Positions 7,614 to 63,415 of a DNA stretch of 64,000 nucleotides are shown piece by piece. Source of the stretch: Enterovibrio calviensis DSM 14347 (GTDB lineage Bacteria; Pseudomonadota; Gammaproteobacteria; Enterobacterales; Vibrionaceae). Under the pieces are notes generated by a model. The model saw only the letters and a program-made list of their open reading frames with translations, searched no databases and was not told the origin of the DNA. Where the stretch lies: assembly GCF_000621165.1 (NCBI RefSeq), contig NZ_JHZA01000001.1, forward strand, positions 248,001 through 312,000, written 5' to 3'. Position 1 is the first letter of the stretch. Each line of letters opens with the position of its first letter. The position numbers and the translations under genes are program-made.

Positions 7614-8693
7614 TCAAACAGCGCCCGTCACTTTGTTTGGCGTAATGATGTGGTCAGCATGAACACAAGATTCTCGCGTTTCCTCTTCACTCGCCACAAC
7701 GTCATCATCGGGCAAAATGATACTGTCAGCCATCGCAGACTTTTCAGCCAGTGCGATGTCATCATCTTCCGTGCGCATGTCTTCGGTTAAGCTCGCAAAC
7801 GTTGTCTCTGTCGCCAACGCTTCTTCTCTCGCCGCGCGTTTTGTTTTGCGCTTTTCTAGGCCAGCAAGCCAGATGAGAGGCACAACAATCAACGAGGTTC
7901 CGACAATCATTAGCATGTCTGGTACTTCACCAAACAGAACAAGGCCGACGCCAACTGCACAAACCAAGCCGCTGTATTCTGCACTCGCGATCTTGTTACT
8001 TTCCGCAGCGCGGTAGGCAATTACACACGTGGCGGCATACACCAAAATGAACGCGGTTGAACCAGACGCACGCAGGAATAAATCCATGCTAAATGGCGCA
8101 CCTTCATACAAGGCCAACCCCAATGCGATAGGAATACCGATCAGGTTATGCAGCAACAAGGTTTGCGGCACGGTTTGTTCACGCGGAATTTTCGGGATCA
8201 ACAAGTTGTTCACCGCCAGCGTGACCGCCACGATCATGGCGGAAATTGCCGCCCAGCTGAGTTCTGTCGGGCGCACCAAGATAAGCACACCAATAAAGCC
8301 CACCACGGCAGCAGCAATAGATGCCGATGACAGCTTTTCACGCAAGAACATGGCAGCCAATGGAAGCATGATCAAGGGTGCTGCGTAGAAGATCGCGTTC
8401 GCCGTTGCCAATGGCAAGGTGGTTAACGCAATCACCGAAAAGAACACACCGACTAGCCACACATGAGCACGTAGAAAGTGCCACTTAAGCCCAAGTGTCA
8501 GGTTCTTCTTCGGTGCCGTTAAACAGAAAGGAAGTAAAATGAGAACGGCTGACACCTGACGAAACAAAGCAAATTGGAAGATAGCGCCATCAGGCCCGCC
8601 TTCCATCGTTTTAACCAGCGCGTCCGAAAACGTCGCGCTAAGGTTACCAATGACCAACAAGGTCATGGCCATCCCAATTGAAATATTACGCAT
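7614..8693 (-). CDS. EamA/DMT-family membrane transporter
   Basis: Drug/metabolite transporter superfamily protein with two EamA repeats and about ten membrane helices between residues 5 and 280. The first repeat covers about 5-140 and the second 150-280 (VYAATCVIAYRAAESNKIA belongs to the second). Members export amino acids, metabolites or drugs. The protein is longer than the usual ~300 residues: a hydrophilic, acidic C-terminal tail of about 75 residues (many Glu, Asp and Thr) follows the last helix and is of unknown purpose. It is divergent from a LysR regulator at 8899, which probably controls it. The substrate cannot be deduced. Confidence 0.85.
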   Translation of the reverse strand: MRNISIGMAMTLLVIGNLSATFSDALVKTMEGGPDGAIFQFALFRQVSAVLILLPFCLTAPKKNLTLGLKWHFLRAHVWLVGVFFSVIALTTLPLATANAIFYAAPLIMLPLAAMFLREKLSSASIAAAVVGFIGVLILVRPTELSWAAISAMIVAVTLAVNNLLIPKIPREQTVPQTLLLHNLIGIPIALGLALYEGAPFSMDLFLRASGSTAFILVYAATCVIAYRAAESNKIASAEYSGLVCAVGVGLVLFGEVPDMLMIVGTSLIVVPLIWLAGLEKRKTKRAAREEALATETTFASLTEDMRTEDDDIALAEKSAMADSIILPDDDVVASEEETRESCVHADHIITPNKVTGAV

Positions 8694-35632: not shown

Positions 35633-37615
35633 TTAACCACCAGACGCGACTTCATCGAGAACTGTTAGCACTGAATTGTCTAAATGACCGTCATACACTT
35701 GGCGACAAACCTTACGTCGTACAGCCAGTCCGGAGATCAGACGTTCTATTGACAGATGTTTAACATCTTGCTGCTGATTATAAAACTCGATGGTTTTACT
35801 CAAGGTCTCATACGGCATGATATCGCCGTCTACCCTCAGCCAATCAAGCTTCTCCATGAATGCCTGACACTCTTCCGCAATCGTTGCAACAGGATGGCCC
35901 GTCATTGCAGACAACGCGGTAATACTGCGCTGCAGCGCTTCTGGGGAAGTGTACTTCGACAAGGTGATCGTCAGTTCATCCGCGTTGATCTCAACCAGGT
36001 GCTTACGTTGCTTAACACGACGCCCCAAACGGCCTCCGCGCTTTTCTTTACGCTGGATCGGTTCAAACTCACCATCAATGATCCCGGAAAGCTGATCAAG
36101 GTCTTGCTTAGGCAAGATCTCATTACGAAGCGGGTTAGGCATAGTCGGTGCTAAGGATCGTTTCCCTTCGTTGTATGTTTTTGCTCGCGAATAACGGATC
36201 ACTTCGTCGACGTTACACTTGATGTCAATTCTGAAGTCGGAATGCTTTTTGTCGTCATCCATTCGGGACACGGTCAGATGGTAACCGTAAAGATTCAGGG
36301 CAAACACATCCTCAGTTTGTGTTTCCTTCTTCGCCATTTTGCGAAGCTCGCGGATCAAATCACTCGAAAAACGTCGCCATTCGATGTTTCTAGCGATTTT
36401 CTGGTTCAAGTCACTCAATGTCATGGAATCTTCTAATCGACGCGACATACGGCTTCTGAAGAGGCTATAGAGCTGAAATACCAGGGTATGTTGACGCAGG
36501 ATCTCTGGCGGGAACAAGAAAAAGTAATCGCGTGTCATCAATTCTTCAAAGAACGATGGTTCCCAAACCAAGATATATAGATTCGGTTTAATACGAATTT
36601 CGCCGTCTTCACCTTCTCGAGGTGCCTCTTCAGAGGCCGTGATCGTACGAGCAATAAATCGGAATCGGTCACTCTTAAAACCTTCAGGCATGTTTTCACT
36701 CAGCCAACGGCCCGTTAATTCATGCAACTGAAAATCTGTAAATTCAATACGATCGATACTTTCTCGGATCGAGTCACGGGCAGGACCACTGTCTTTTTTA
36801 CCACGAAGTGACAAAATATCAGTGATATACACGGGCGTTTTGTTGCCGACCTTTTGCGTTTGCAGTTCATAATTTGGCAGATGGTGATCGTGGTATTGAA
36901 CCGTCAGCGTGAACAATGCAAATAAGGTCATCAGATCATCCACAGTCATGATCGACTTGGAAGATCGTGTTTCGATGATCGCTTTGGTGCCGCTGATTGC
37001 GACCATGGATTTTTGATAGCTCTTTTTCGTGCGTGGTGGCGCAAGCGCTTGGTCGATGATCCCAGCCCAACTGGTTGGTGCGATCACAATATGATCTTTC
37101 TCATCTTGCATCGACGGAGGAATGCCCAAACCATGTTCGCTAAGCAGTTGTTTATTGACATGATTCTGAGCTAATGCTTTGGAGCGCTTCTGTTTCTCCA
37201 TCACTTTTGTCTTTTCAGACATTAGACCTGAAGCGCCAAGAACAGAGATTAGCTGGCTTGGATTCACAAAGTGATGAAGCATGGTTTTACCAGCCAAGCC
37301 TTCTTCGAATCGAACGCCTTGTTGCTTAAACAATCCAATCTGTACTGCGGCACGAAGGCGCTGTTGGATTGCAGCACGAGTGAGATGGCCATCTGTGGCT
37401 TCAATCAGTTCCGTTGTAGAAACGTAGCCATCTTTCGATGCAAATCCACGTAACGAAATTAAGTTCAGCAATTCGAGAATGCTTTTGGTCACCCCTTTGA
37501 AATGTTCATACTGAGGGAGCCAATCGATCAATTGACCATGAACTTGAAATAAGTGTCCATCTTTGTGTGATCTTGGCGCTGTGATCAGTATTTTTTCCAC
37601 GGGGTTTGAGGCCAT
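35633..37615 (-). CDS. rctB: RctB, chromosome II replication initiator
   Basis: Initiator protein of 660 residues, specific to Vibrionaceae chromosome II and about the length known from V. cholerae. Recognisable conserved stretches include HFKGVTKSILELLNLISLRG, LTRAAIQQRLRAAV, AGIIDQALAPPRTKKSYQKS, ITDILSLRGKKDSGPARDSI and LVEINADELTITLSKYTSPE. It binds iterons to start replication and 29/39-mer sites to limit it, through winged-helix domains; the monomer/dimer balance is controlled by DnaK/J in the known system. AAGGAG stands ten bases before the ATG. A 29-mer-like site lies 49-70 bases upstream of the start, where it would repress the rctB promoter. It is transcribed away from the origin. 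Confidence 0.97.
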   Translation of the reverse strand: MASNPVEKILITAPRSHKDGHLFQVHGQLIDWLPQYEHFKGVTKSILELLNLISLRGFASKDGYVSTTELIEATDGHLTRAAIQQRLRAAVQIGLFKQQGVRFEEGLAGKTMLHHFVNPSQLISVLGASGLMSEKTKVMEKQKRSKALAQNHVNKQLLSEHGLGIPPSMQDEKDHIVIAPTSWAGIIDQALAPPRTKKSYQKSMVAISGTKAIIETRSSKSIMTVDDLMTLFALFTLTVQYHDHHLPNYELQTQKVGNKTPVYITDILSLRGKKDSGPARDSIRESIDRIEFTDFQLHELTGRWLSENMPEGFKSDRFRFIARTITASEEAPREGEDGEIRIKPNLYILVWEPSFFEELMTRDYFFLFPPEILRQHTLVFQLYSLFRSRMSRRLEDSMTLSDLNQKIARNIEWRRFSSDLIRELRKMAKKETQTEDVFALNLYGYHLTVSRMDDDKKHSDFRIDIKCNVDEVIRYSRAKTYNEGKRSLAPTMPNPLRNEILPKQDLDQLSGIIDGEFEPIQRKEKRGGRLGRRVKQRKHLVEINADELTITLSKYTSPEALQRSITALSAMTGHPVATIAEECQAFMEKLDWLRVDGDIMPYETLSKTIEFYNQQQDVKHLSIERLISGLAVRRKVCRQVYDGHLDNSVLTVLDEVASGG

Positions 37616-37685: not shown

Positions 37686-37856
37686 AGAAGATTAATAGAA
37701 AAAAAACAAGAATGAAAGATCTTTTTTGAAGAGTCTTTTTAACTGATCTTTATGATTATATAGGATCTAATTGATTATATGATCTTATGATCAGGTTGAG
37801 TTTTTTCCTGTAAGGCATTGAAATTAATATTTATTATTTTCGCACTCTCCGAAAGA

Positions 37857-37978
37857 ATGATCATGTTAAGAGCGGAAAGATGATCATTAAATGTTTGAAA
37901 GCATGATCATTAGAAGCCCGAAACTATGATCATCAAACGCATGAAAACGTGATCATCAATGGTCCAAAAGAATGATCA
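37857..37978 (+). repeat. Six RctB iterons with exact 23-bp period
   Basis: ATGATCA words start at 37857, 37880, 37903, 37926, 37949 (GTGATCA variant) and 37972, each exactly 23 bases apart. Most are preceded by a purine-rich GAAAG- or AAA-type block. The spacing of about two helical turns places all sites on one face of the DNA. All contain a Dam site. This is the core array for RctB loading. Confidence 0.93.
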
Positions 37979-37993
37979 TGGTTGAATCACAGG

Positions 37994-38002
37994 TTATCCA
38001 CA
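37994..38002 (+). promoter_or_regulatory. DnaA box
   Basis: TTATCCACA is a perfect high-affinity DnaA box, 15 bases to the right of the sixth iteron word. DnaA is needed at ori2 in V. cholerae. Confidence 0.9.
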
Positions 38003-38081
38003 GATCGTTGCGGCCCTATTGGGTATAACGTTTGATTTGTACGTCTAATTTGGTCGTTAGCGCTTAAATAGCTGCGGAAAG

Positions 38082-38250
38082 ATGATCATGAAAATGCTAT
38101 TTGGACTTATTTTTACATGTTTCTGCGCATACTGAGCGGTAAGTTGGACGATACTGACACAAGTTTGTGCTTGGATATGTTCAATTGAAATAGCATCAAG
38201 CGTATTCTAGTCGCGTATGCATATGTGTCCGTGATACGAAAGAATGATCA
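38082..38250 (+). repeat. Two single iterons to the right of the DnaA box
   Basis: ATGATCA at 38082-38088 (preceded by GCGGAAAG) and 38244-38250 (preceded by CGAAAGA), same orientation as the core array. They lie around a 39-mer-like element at 38200-38231. Confidence 0.75.
38200..38231. promoter_or_regulatory. 39-mer-like element, divergent
   Basis: GCGTATTCTAGTCGCGTATG and onward to GTCCG aligns without gaps to the element at 38720, keeping TCTAGTCG and the TCCG end. It is less conserved than the other two. Confidence 0.45.
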
Positions 38251-38360
38251 AGACGGTCATTTGGTATTTCAATTGAATACGTGCATTCATCGTTCTCTCG
38301 CTCTGATCGGGCTCTTTAGTGCCTGATTCTGCTCTCGATTCAGTATTGAGAAGGCATGAG

Positions 38361-38392
38361 CCGTAATTTAGACGGTGTCATTCATCGTTCCG
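38361..38392 (+). promoter_or_regulatory. 39-mer-like RctB site 1
   Basis: CCGTAATTTAGACGG, then a variable spacer, then TTCATCGTTCCG. It matches the element at 38720-38751 at 24 of 32 positions, counted by eye. 39-mers bind RctB and restrain initiation in V. cholerae. Confidence 0.75.
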
Positions 38393-38429
38393 AGGTTAAA
38401 TCCCTGCGCATTTACAGTCGATAATGTCT

Positions 38430-38622
38430 TGATCATTTTTTCGGTCTAAGAGGATCCAACTGCAGAGAGATATGGTGATTTGTTGCACTGAATATCGCCT
38501 TGATCATAGTTCCTTTGTGTTTCTAATTCTTTGGAAAGATGATCAAGGTATCTTTCCGCAACGTCCTTCTTTACATGGGCATACCTATCTACTTCTTGAT
38601 CATTGTTCCGTAAACATGATCA
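38430..38622. repeat. Five iterons of the rctA-type control region
   Basis: TGATCA words sit at 38430-38436, 38501-38507, 38539-38545, 38597-38603 and 38616-38622. Their flanks (TTCC on one side, AAG on the other) show both orientations. The last reads ATGATCAAGAGA, which I recall as the V. cholerae 12-mer form. Confidence 0.8.
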
Positions 38623-38719
38623 AGAGACAGCCGTTGCCCGCTCAATTGATGTACCCTCCCCTTTCTTTTTGCCGTTTTTGTCACTCGTAATGAAAGATGC
38701 CATGTTGAAATGCACTATG

Positions 38720-38751
38720 CCGTAATCTAGTCGGATGTTTTCAACGTTCCG
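38720..38751 (+). promoter_or_regulatory. 39-mer-like RctB site 2
   Basis: CCGTAATCTAGTCGG, spacer, then TCAACGTTCCG, in the same orientation as the copy at 38361. It lies between the rctA-type iterons and the parS2 site. Confidence 0.75.
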
Positions 38752-60140: not shown

Positions 60141-61979
60141 CTAGATATTTCTAACCACTCGGAATCCCAAATAATTCGCGCTGAGGTCGGACTTCAGTTC
60201 CAAGCGTTCTGAGACGCGTGCGCTGCTTGGAGAAAAGCTCCATGCGCCGCCACGAGCTACGGGTGCTTGGCTTTCTGCCCACTCCCACACATTCCCTGCG
60301 GTGTCGTAAACGCCGAATGGGTTAGCTGGGAAACTGCCAACGGGCGACGTACTTCTGTTTGACCAAGCGGTACCGCTCCAACCTGTGTTAGCGTTGCCAA
60401 CACCGATGTCGTTGCCCCACCAAAAATCTGATGCGCTACCAGCACGTGCTGCAACTTCCCACTGAACTTCAGAAGGCAGTGCGTAGTTAAAGCCAGTTTG
60501 CTTGCTTAGCCACGAAGAATAGGTGACTGCATCTTGACGAGTAATACAAACAACAGGGGAGTTGTCTGCTTGGTCAAAGCCCGGCTTGCGCCAGTTATGA
60601 TTGAGTAGCTGTTTAGGCTCGCCATTGACAAGAGAGGTACAACCTTGACCTTCTTCTGCTTCCGTCACATAGCCGGTTGCAGCAACAAACTCACCAAACT
60701 GCTTCACCGTGACTGGCGTTGCAGCGATAGAGAAGGGCTGATCGACCACCACAGGCTGCTTGGCTTCAAAACCAACGTTATATTGGCCTGCGCCGATAAC
60801 GACCATTTTCGGTGCCTGACGGTTGTTGGTTAGCTTGTCAGCGAATCGCTTTCCCGGTTTTGGGCGGTTCTCCTGCTCTCTGAGGCTGGCCCATACAACG
60901 GAATCTTTGTTCATGTTCATTTGACGGCTATAAGGTTCGAACCCTGGCTTTTCCACTGTCAGTTGATGTTGGCCCGCAGGCAACATGATTTCCACAGGGG
61001 TAGATCCGTAGGTAACGCCGTTAATGGTGACATTGTCTTCAAAGCGATTTGAGCGAATTTTGACGTTAACCCAACGTTTAGCTTGCTGCTTTGGTGTCGC
61101 TTTTGCAGCAGTAAATGATTTATCAACACAGTAACGCTCTGCAAAATCAAGCAACTTACACGCAGCGTTGTCATCAGGCTTGCTGCGCATTTCCGCTTGC
61201 AAGCGCGTGATGTAACGGTTGTTACCGCTAAATCCGCTGTCCACCACGTTGCTGTTCATTACGTGAATGTTGAACGAGACACGGTTGGCATTCAGCTTGG
61301 CTGTCGAAGATTCCGTTACTTTGTCTAAAACGTGTGATTGAAAGGTGTTAACGGCTTTTTGCATGGTCAGGGTTTTACCCTGATTGGAACATGCAGCTAA
61401 CGTCATCGACTCGCTACACGTAATGGTGTGAACCACTTCGATGGTATCGGCAAACGTCAGTTCTTGACGAAGGCGCTTCACACGCGCTTCTTTCTTCGAC
61501 TCTTGTAAGTTTTCAAGCGAGCTCACCAACAATTGTTTCTGGCGGTTTTCGCCTTCGACAATGCGCTGTTGTTCGGCGACGGCTTGATCATTACTCAGCG
61601 TCAAAGTTTGATTTTCTTTTACCGCTTTCCATGCAGCTTGGTAATCATCTTTATACTGCGTGAGATCGGTGTCAGGATTTTCAATGAGGCGACGGAATTG
61701 TTCGTCTAGACGCTCTTGCGCCATTGTCCGTCTTTTTTCCAAATCAATCGCTTTAGTCGCCAAATTTTCACGTTCGGAGAGTAAAGCGTCCAGTCTATCT
61801 CTTTGCGTCTGGAGGTTTTCAGCATGAGAGCCGATTTCACTTCTTTTATCTGCTAGCTTTTGTTCCAGAGCAACGACCGGGTCATTGGTTGCTACATTGG
61901 TTTCATTGGCAAGCGATTGACCACTAAGAAGAATCGGCGTTAGCGCGAAGACCAACGCGGTGATGCGATTACTTTTCAT
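60141..61979 (-). CDS. Exported coiled-coil/PEGA/SUMF1-like protein
   Basis: Exported protein of 612 residues. Signal peptide about residues 1-25 (MKSNRITALVFALTPILLSG). Coiled coil at about 35-175 (many Gln, Glu, Arg). A middle domain with six Cys (CSESMTLAACS, AACKLLDFAERYC) follows, then a PEGA-like domain about 300-360 (VTINGVTYGSTPVEIMLPAG, HQLTVEKPGFEPY). The C-terminal SUMF1/FGE-type domain covers about 395-610 (TPVTVKQFGEF, LPSEVQWEVAARAG, FGVYDTAGNVWEW, GFRVVRN). The Cys pair that makes formylglycine in true FGE is not present in the RGGAWSFSPSSARVSE segment, so it is probably a binding or structural protein. The start at 61979 has AAGGGA three to four bases upstream. It is monocistronic. 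Confidence 0.82.
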   Translation of the reverse strand: MKSNRITALVFALTPILLSGQSLANETNVATNDPVVALEQKLADKRSEIGSHAENLQTQRDRLDALLSERENLATKAIDLEKRRTMAQERLDEQFRRLIENPDTDLTQYKDDYQAAWKAVKENQTLTLSNDQAVAEQQRIVEGENRQKQLLVSSLENLQESKKEARVKRLRQELTFADTIEVVHTITCSESMTLAACSNQGKTLTMQKAVNTFQSHVLDKVTESSTAKLNANRVSFNIHVMNSNVVDSGFSGNNRYITRLQAEMRSKPDDNAACKLLDFAERYCVDKSFTAAKATPKQQAKRWVNVKIRSNRFEDNVTINGVTYGSTPVEIMLPAGQHQLTVEKPGFEPYSRQMNMNKDSVVWASLREQENRPKPGKRFADKLTNNRQAPKMVVIGAGQYNVGFEAKQPVVVDQPFSIAATPVTVKQFGEFVAATGYVTEAEEGQGCTSLVNGEPKQLLNHNWRKPGFDQADNSPVVCITRQDAVTYSSWLSKQTGFNYALPSEVQWEVAARAGSASDFWWGNDIGVGNANTGWSGTAWSNRSTSPVGSFPANPFGVYDTAGNVWEWAESQAPVARGGAWSFSPSSARVSERLELKSDLSANYLGFRVVRNI

Positions 61980-62027: not shown

Positions 62028-62641
62028 ATAGCTAGATTAACACGTCAGTGTCATTTAGCTCGTCCATGTTACTAATTATTTGATGCTTATCGTTATTAAT
62101 CAATATCTATATTTTGATAAACAACTCAATAATTAACGGTGACATTTAGTTGACGCCAAAAATATAACGCGTTAACTGCTTAATGAAATAGAAATAATGG
62201 CGAGTTTGACGTTCAATTATTATTTAGCGTCATATTATTGACGACGTGGAAAATAATTTTAATTCCGCGGGTAGGTTAACGACACAATGAAACAGTGAGG
62301 ATCGCTTTCATCGGAACGATGATCATGAAGGGATCTTGCGTGTATTGATTCGAAAGCATGATCAAGCGTTGTAAAACCTACAGAATCAGTGGCCGACTGA
62401 TATTAAGTTATTAATTTACAGTTACTTATGTGTATTTTCGTGAAGTGCAGAGTATATGGGTGTTCTTGTCTACCTTGATCAAACTCGCGCTTTCGTTGAG
62501 ATCATGCACAAAAATCGAGTCGAAATGACATTGCCCGTAGTTTACGCATCTCTTGATCATCTTTCCGTGGTGATTTTGCTTCTCGTTTTTATGTGATGCG
62601 TGGCAGAATGACAAGTTGTTAAGTCACCTATCATTATATCT
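62028..62641. other. Intergenic region with distal RctB-site cluster
   Basis: About 610 bases without a gene. The first 250 are AT-rich and should contain the promoter of the exported-protein gene. The rest holds an iteron and 39-mer-like cluster, described separately. A 62-codon minus frame at 62426-62614 overlaps it and is not protein-like. Confidence 0.7.
62319..62567. repeat. Distal cluster of RctB iterons with 39-mer-like element
   Basis: ATGATCA words at 62319-62325 and 62358-62364 (preceded by CGAAAGC), TGATCAA at 62476, a weaker GAGATCATG near 62499 and TGATCAT at 62554-62560. The last is followed by CTTTCCG, so on the minus strand it reads CGGAAAGATGATCA, exactly like an ori2 iteron. 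An overlapping 39-mer-like element (62535-62567) starts CCGTAGTTTACGCATC and ends CATCTTTCCG. V. cholerae chromosome II is known to have an extra RctB-binding cluster of this kind away from its origin. Confidence 0.75.
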
Positions 62642-63415
62642 ATGGCATCTGAATTTAAGCACTCGCAAGTCATGGCTCTTCCCAATCATCCGTCGTTGCA
62701 TGCGCACGACTACCGTCAGGTTGTGATTGGGTTGCAAGGCCAAACAGAGTTTGAGCTTTCTGGGCGCGGCAGTCTTGTCGGGCCGGGTCAAGGATGTCTG
62801 GTGTCTGAGTCAGAGCTTCATGCGTTTTCCGGCGTAGGGCACAATGAAATCCTGGTGATAAACCTTCCCGAGCCTCTGTTGTTGGGGGAGCTAAGCATGA
62901 AACAGAAAGTCGATACGCTGTTTGCAAGAGAAGCGTACTTCCAATTGGATAGCCAAGCACAAACCTTAGTGAAGGCGCTGACCGCTGAAATGGTGGCAAA
63001 TCCAAATGACAAGCTGTTGGGGCGCGCCTGTGCCGATACCTTGTTGTGTGTGATGGAACGACATTTTCGTGACCAACTCGCTCCGCGCCGTCATGGGCAT
63101 CGCTTGAATATGGATATTATTGATCTCTATATTCGACAACACATCAGTCGCAAGATCAGCGTGGCACAAATGGCAGGCTCGGTATTTTTGGCCGAAAGTC
63201 AGTTCCACCAGCTGTTTAAGACACAAGTGGGTATGACCCCGCATCAATACGTTTTGATGCGACGTTTTGAGCTTGCACAAGAATTGTTACGCTCCAGCGA
63301 ACTGAATCTCACGCAGATCTCAGACAGCTGTGGTTTTGCTTCTCAGAGCGGATTCACCTCTGCATTTTCTCGCCAGTTTGGCATTTCCCCTTCTCGCTTC
63401 CGCCAGCAAGACTGA
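62642..63415 (+). CDS. AraC-family transcriptional regulator
   Basis: AraC/XylS-type regulator of 257 residues. The N-terminal half is a cupin-like sensing domain (HAHDYRQVVIGLQGQTEFEL, LVGPGQGCLVSESELHAFSG). The C-terminal ~100 residues hold the two helix-turn-helix motifs (ISVAQMAGSVFLAESQFHQL, QISDSCGFASQSGFTSAFSR, then FGISPSRFR). It stands directly upstream of putA on the same strand, so it may control proline use, as the AraC-type PutR does in some Vibrio species (from memory). No strong ribosome binding site precedes either ATG (62642 or 62672), so the start is uncertain. Confidence 0.88.
   Translation: MASEFKHSQVMALPNHPSLHAHDYRQVVIGLQGQTEFELSGRGSLVGPGQGCLVSESELHAFSGVGHNEILVINLPEPLLLGELSMKQKVDTLFAREAYFQLDSQAQTLVKALTAEMVANPNDKLLGRACADTLLCVMERHFRDQLAPRRHGHRLNMDIIDLYIRQHISRKISVAQMAGSVFLAESQFHQLFKTQVGMTPHQYVLMRRFELAQELLRSSELNLTQISDSCGFASQSGFTSAFSRQFGISPSRFRQQD

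Follow-up and report, generated by a model that had tools for sequence, protein, structure and literature searches.

A cluster of predicted RctB sites was located in a 64,000-nucleotide stretch of Enterovibrio calviensis DSM 14347 DNA (the window), upstream of an AraC-family regulator gene. On the basis of its sequence and of analogy with V. cholerae, the cluster is interpreted, with a probability of about 0.85, as the Enterovibrio-type counterpart of the V. cholerae site chrII-10, with two added upstream iterons, that would serve as a set of distal RctB sites restraining initiation of chromosome 2. An earlier note on this DNA had placed the cluster 24 kb from the origin, between a gene for an exported-type protein and an AraC gene. 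The distance to the ori2 iteron array is about 24.3 kb, and Pfam assigned the flanking genes to the FGE-sulfatase/PEGA and AraC families (Table 1). The extent then proposed, 62319-62567, starts too late, since iteron 1 begins at 62313; the 39-mer-like element itself reaches back to about 62528.

Table 1. Coordinates of the RctB-site cluster, its flanking genes, and the rctB-ori2 region in the window
Feature	Position	Strand	Sequence, basis or remark
rctB initiator gene	35633-37615	-	Pfam RctB_central, E 2.4e-186
ori2 (iteron array and regulatory half), presumed target	37851-38751		pattern matches
ori2 iteron array	37851-37979
Two ori2 39-mers, regulatory half	38361-38392, 38720-38751
ParA-type gene	38976
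FGE-sulfatase/PEGA-domain protein gene, one flank of cluster	60141-61979	-	Pfam
Iteron 1	62313-62326	+	GGAACGATGATCA (62313-62325) / GGAACGATGATCAT (62313-62326); TGATCA at 62320
Iteron 2	62352-62365	+	GAAAGCATGATCA (62352-62364) / GAAAGCATGATCAA (62352-62365); TGATCA at 62359
Lone TGATCA without GRAA flank	62476-62481		weak candidate, probably not functional
Conserved block	62496-62512		GAGATCATGCACA / GAGATCNTGCACA; 10 of 17 columns invariant in genus
39-mer-like element	62528-62567	+	ACATTGC lead, CCGTAGTTT box, spacer, right arm ending TTCCG
Iteron 3, nested in right arm of 39-mer	62554-62566	-	GGAAAGATGATCA; GATC is a Dam site
AraC-family regulator gene, other flank	62642-63415	+	Pfam HTH_18 / AraC_binding

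The three iterons of the cluster each combine TGATCA, with its Dam GATC, and an ori2-type flank. Matches to the extended iteron, GRAANNATGATCA, numbered 14 in the window, compared with 0.08 expected from dinucleotide shuffles, and were distributed as 10 in ori2, 3 in the cluster, and 1 at 8362. The whole 5.5 Mb genome contains 25 (10 in ori2, 3 in the cluster, and 12 elsewhere), so that three within 254 bp are far beyond chance. The 39-mer pattern CCGTARTN{19,22}TTCCG was matched three times in the window (0.04 expected), by the two ori2 39-mers and by the distal element, although over the whole genome this loose pattern was not selective, giving 4 matches versus 21 for the reversed control. 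The core of the distal element from CCGTA to TTCCG (CCGTAGTTT..TTCCG) spans 62535-62567, with iterons 1 and 2 beginning 222 and 183 bp before its CCGTA box and the AraC start 74 bp past its end. One TTTCC box is common to iteron 3 and the 39-mer right arm, and iteron 3 and the ori2 iteron at 38533 are identical over 15 bases (GGAAAGATGATCAAG); the earlier description of an iteron lying inside the 39-mer-like element and reading like an ori2 iteron was thus accurate. The element differs from the two ori2 39-mers in its 33-bp spacing, which is 32 bp in the latter, and it carries a nested GATC. Single extended iterons far from ori2 were also observed on the window's own contig (8362-8374 in the window; C1:338991 and C1:404555 in the genome), and are possible further titration sites.

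Within the genus, 18 genomes were compared, including the window's own, and the 14 that contain an AraC orthologue (82-100% identity) provided an alignment of 14 loci. The TGATCA words of all three iterons occupy fixed places in 14/14 loci, which agrees with the three clear iterons first described. The two weaker iterons that had been added to them are unsupported, because the TGATCA at 62476 is kept in only two of the 14 loci; this word also lacks the GRAA flank, and the stretch contains no fifth TGATCA. Invariant columns amount to 13 of 14 in iteron 1, 11 of 14 in iteron 2, and 27 of 40 in the element, compared with 29 of 257 in the remaining intergenic stretch; in the AraC gene, 145 of the first 259 columns are invariant. 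GATC is found at 6-7 per 345 bp in the cluster stretch, compared with 0.8-1.6 in other parts of these loci. The conserved block between the lone TGATCA and the element is perhaps the AraC promoter, which is a guess. Among 16 named loci of Enterovibrio, Grimontia, and Salinivibrio, 15 also contain the nested element, in one case with TCGTA for CCGTA, as the pattern used permits; the remaining locus (G. marina) stops short of the element's position. These 16 loci, left from 18 after two unrelated ones were dropped, overlap with the genome set and are not independent of it.

Conservation of the nested element extends across the family. The pattern CCGTARN{9,20}TTGATCATNNTTYC, searched with no mismatches, was found in 212 of 329 Vibrionaceae genomes, representing 7 of 13 genera, versus one match to the reversed pattern in all 329. 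Exactly one match is present in all but eight of the 212 genomes; among the matches listed, at least two, both the sole match of their genome (G043, G196), have irregular spacing. The position relative to rctB was compared in 80 hand-chosen genomes of the 212, all of which yielded rctB. In 71 of them the element is on the same contig as rctB; 61 of these have it on the upstream side of that gene and on the strand opposite to it, as a rule within 60 kb (59 genomes; median over all 61, 21 kb), with two genomes at 217 and 320 kb. Position or orientation departs from this layout in the other 10 of the 71, one of which (G159) was evaluated without allowing for circularity. By its coordinates, the window's element is likewise a nested iteron and 39-mer upstream of rctB and outside the origin, as expected of a chrII-10-type site.

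Forty-one loci were read in detail, comprising 40 fetched loci and the window, after a second match in G161 was dropped. In 36 of the 41, the element is followed at a distance of 19-328 bp by the start of an AraC-like ORF, as judged from mechanically assigned ORF starts; the product of this ORF is 44-100% identical to that of the window. The spacing of the distal element is 32 bp in 30 loci and 33 bp in 11. In blastn comparisons of the intergenic DNA, a 46-bp stretch over the element was the sole significant match to G192, a V. cholerae-like genome (E 1e-5, compared with 0.08 for the second-best match), and the best match covered the element in all four other-genus loci G192, G115, G050, and G090 (E 1e-5, 2e-7, 8e-5, and 4e-6, respectively), the other matches having E values of 0.004 or worse and being in some cases iteron against iteron. 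The words are therefore conserved in relatives, both in the genus and in the family, as the earlier note had required beforehand of a functional cluster. This wide, near-single-copy conservation of the nested site, defined at the sequence level, is new here; no earlier report on the conservation of chrII-10 was found in the literature searched, which comprised the main texts of openly accessible papers.

The 117 genomes that lack the exact pattern were approached through the gene downstream of AraC, which we take to be putA, a name assigned from its protein sequence rather than from an annotation. PutA was searched for in 80 of these genomes and matched in 71, and up to 4.1 kb of upstream DNA was fetched in 60. 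A weight matrix derived from the 41 elements was applied with a cut-off of 12.8, the highest score among 60 base-shuffled sequences; 44 of the 60 stretches scored at least 12.8 and 33 at least 20, and in the other 16 any element upstream of putA fell below the shuffled maximum. In 39 of the 44 scoring stretches the element lies near the start of the AraC gene, at a distance of 1.0-1.8 kb from the end that adjoins putA, and in the remaining five it is 171-249 bp from that end. Eleven scores between 12.8 and 20 (ten from group g2, and G184) are weak, because the opposite strand, a stricter control than shuffling, also reaches 12.8 or more, and they rest mainly on the constant place of the element; besides nine g8 genomes described below, such opposite-strand scores occurred in G026 (19.7), G098, G171, G030, and G028. 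For 10 of the 16 negatives, the search was extended to the 34-40 kb upstream of rctB, where shuffled sequences scored at most 10.5. The five from g8 have a nested element at another place, about 12-14 kb from rctB (scores 25.9-29.6), and the five from g12 have no such element within the extended stretch outside ori2. The nested site is therefore common, can move or be lost, and tends to be near ori2.

All 12 fetched g2 genomes have degenerate forms only (12.8-22.9), and TGATCA has been lost from the degenerate distal copies in G032, G101, and G184. Together with the genomes without an element, and with the almost silent deletion reported in the available text for V. cholerae (PMC3937223), the g2 forms are what would be expected if the sites were remnants of an older and longer ori2, or of a gene rearrangement, and were drifting without function. 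Such drift is nevertheless very improbable for the window's cluster, given the excess of invariant columns in the element over the intergenic background in the genus, the coincidence of the best match with the element in four loci of other genera, and the retention of the element in genomes of 2.1 and 2.6 Mb.

The closest known counterpart was described in V. cholerae, where RctB was mapped by ChIP-chip and its distal chrII sites extend from 956828 to 1030773 (Baek and Chattoraj 2014, PMC3937223, available text). According to the same portions of that paper, chrII-10, whose position is about 1027996-1028033 as derived from the flanks of its deletion, consists of an iteron within a 39-mer, and both parts bind RctB in EMSA experiments, the 39-mer even in the absence of methylation. 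Of the sites, it inhibited a mini-chrII plasmid most strongly, more RctB gave no relief, and extra copies lowered the mini-chrII copy number and oriII/terII; its deletion caused no growth phenotype and, per the authors, no significant effect. The conservation stated in this text concerns the chrI site. A ChIP-seq study from 2025 identified six chr2 RctB regions including ori2, which was about ten-fold stronger than the other loci (PMC11711613, available text). The overlap of the two site types, which the earlier note considered unusual, is thus already known as the published chrII-10 design, and it recurs across the Vibrionaceae.

The likeness that had been proposed to the distal chromosome II cluster of V. 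cholerae was strengthened by G192, whose RctB, over 329 residues, has 98% identity with the sequence of the V. cholerae structure. The nested element of G192 is 42 kb from rctB, on the upstream side, between the same two gene families as that of the window. Its nearest extended iterons (locus L082) are located at -2741, +3047, and +3139 from the element, in sulfatase-like and putA-like ORFs; counted from chrII-10 with the orientation reversed, these correspond to about 1030.77 and 1024.9-1025.0 kb. Because these offsets fit the outermost published site and the two-iteron region, the published cluster and that of the window are most likely the same locus, as judged from the sequence of G192 rather than that of N16961. 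No paper naming both VCA1075 and RctB was found in the literature search. In both chrII-10 and the window, an iteron and a 39-mer are nested outside ori2 but in its neighbourhood, and both carry the nested GATC, making the same exception to the 39-mers of V. cholerae ori2, which are stated to contain no Dam site (PMC6090056, available text). The window copy differs in its spacing of 33 instead of 32 and in its two extra upstream iterons, and it is known from sequence alone, whereas binding and inhibition were demonstrated in V. cholerae.

The location of the element directly before the AraC gene, and the presence of an AraC-like ORF in the same place at most of the 41 loci, would also suit an operator through which RctB or another factor regulates the AraC gene and, via AraC, the putA-like genes, coupling transcription to the replication cycle. 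Some of the V. cholerae data are compatible with a regulatory role: the 29-mer contributes to the repression of rctB, and a weak but significant positive effect of RctB on VC1803 was reported, but RctB made minimal to no difference to two other tested genes (PMC11711613, available text). The distance from the element to the AraC start differs among loci, and ten loci keep the element without an AraC gene. In five of these (G001, G005, G033, G042, and G172) no AraC-like ORF follows the element according to ORF clustering, and in the other five (G098, G126, G136, G176, and G177) the element is too near putA for an AraC gene to lie between. In G001 and G005, the genomes of 2.1 and 2.6 Mb, no AraC match was found anywhere in the genome, and the element and an upstream extended iteron are kept 6.7 kb from rctB, though not on the usual side or in the usual orientation. 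Since the element is retained where the AraC gene is not, an AraC operator is unlikely to be the main reason for its conservation, and we regard this explanation of the cluster as improbable. The regulatory half of ori2 in these two genomes contains no recognisable 39-mer (L220; L221). In G005, the distal nested element (L111) and the iteron array are about 5.5 kb apart, and by eye other DNA seems to be in place of the ori2 39-mers.

If the cluster is a chrII-10-type brake on chromosome 2, RctB would bind its three iterons when they are Dam-methylated and its 39-mer whatever the methylation state. Sites 24 kb from ori2 would be duplicated soon after initiation, and the duplicated sites would then remove free RctB, pair (handcuff) with ori2 sites, or both, thereby discouraging re-firing. 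Because the nested iteron carries its GATC inside the 39-mer, a methylation-dependent change of mode is possible: the element would act in the 39-mer mode when hemimethylated after passage of the fork, and as iteron plus 39-mer once remethylated. By analogy with V. cholerae we infer the binding of RctB and its effect in E. calviensis; the methylation switch we infer from the placement of the GATC. The 39-mer mode may be weaker in the window's genus, because its spacing is 33 bp compared with 32 in the ori2 39-mers. A comparable arrangement, to which Baek and Chattoraj referred (PMC3937223, available text), is datA of E. coli, where an initiator site near, but not in, the origin holds back re-initiation; datA involves the DnaA initiator and other sequences, whereas binding to the window cluster is predicted only.

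Iterons, dense GATC, and a 39-mer are also components of ori2 itself, and the cluster might accordingly be viewed as a secondary, conditional replication origin. This is highly implausible, as the cluster lacks a regular iteron array, and a V. cholerae fragment at 1025 kb, about 3 kb from chrII-10, had no origin activity (PMC3937223, available text). For the restraining function favoured here, a more general form can be proposed, although it is speculative and rather doubtful: the Vibrionaceae might keep one dual-mode RctB site near ori2, with its methylation-reading 39-mer as a timer of the refractory period, and the surrounding iterons might move between intergenic and coding DNA. The chrII-10 site looked dispensable in V. 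cholerae, but nested sites of this design are found widely in the family, in most cases close to the origin, and persist after the loss of neighbour genes. Either redundancy in V. cholerae masks a real cell-cycle role, or the site is of importance in conditions that have not been tried. The family offers a natural panel of variants (32- or 33-bp spacing, a broken iteron, head-to-head pairs, and doubled elements) with which titration could be separated from pairing.

The surroundings of the element vary with the clade, as revealed by a survey of upstream and downstream iterons that used a somewhat looser iteron pattern. In the window's genus, as in g7, g8, g9, and g11, the element is preceded by one to three extended iterons, most of them at -140 to -340. 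The g12 loci have an upstream extended iteron in only 2 of 25; in 23 of 25, one or more extended iterons occur at +2.7 to +3.2 kb, in a putA-like ORF, and in 11 of 25 one is found near -2.74 kb, in a sulfatase-like ORF. A second iteron follows the element directly, head to head, in 23 of 101 loci (9/41 and 14/60). The inverted iteron of these pairs has a TTCCGGAA-like centre, for example TGATCATCGTTCCGGAACTATGATCA (L152, L154, L155, L090, L091, and others). Nine g8 genomes (G051, G052, G077, G080, G068, G054, G067, G058, and G071; loci L137-L140, L142-L145, and L151) have a nested element on the opposite strand as well, with scores of 27-37, and at least five TGATCA words within about 450 bp were seen in four viewed g8 loci.

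Like the inhibitory RctB sites of ori2, the 39-mers and the 29-mer, the distal element has a left box CCGTA, which reads TTACGG on the opposite strand, and a right arm TTCCG, but it contains a full iteron with a Dam site, whereas TGATCA was found in none of 64 ori2 39-mers, all with CCGTA and a spacing of 32 bp, that came from 38 of the 41 ori2 regions; this contrast arises partly by construction, because the distal search pattern demands TGATCAT. In four g12 genomes (G122, G130, G188, and G189), an ori2 stretch with an intact TGATCA in the right arm but without the CCGTA box scored 25-26. The idea that the right arm of the ori2 39-mer is a decayed iteron beat within-arm shuffles (0/2000), yet another offset in the same 39-mers was nearly equal (-18.5 against -16.1); the resemblance is suggestive, and the idea was set aside. 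Distant RctB-like proteins (24-31% identity) are encoded on other contigs in four genomes (G041:C32, G104:C3, G126:C3, and G138:C3), and are perhaps plasmid initiators.
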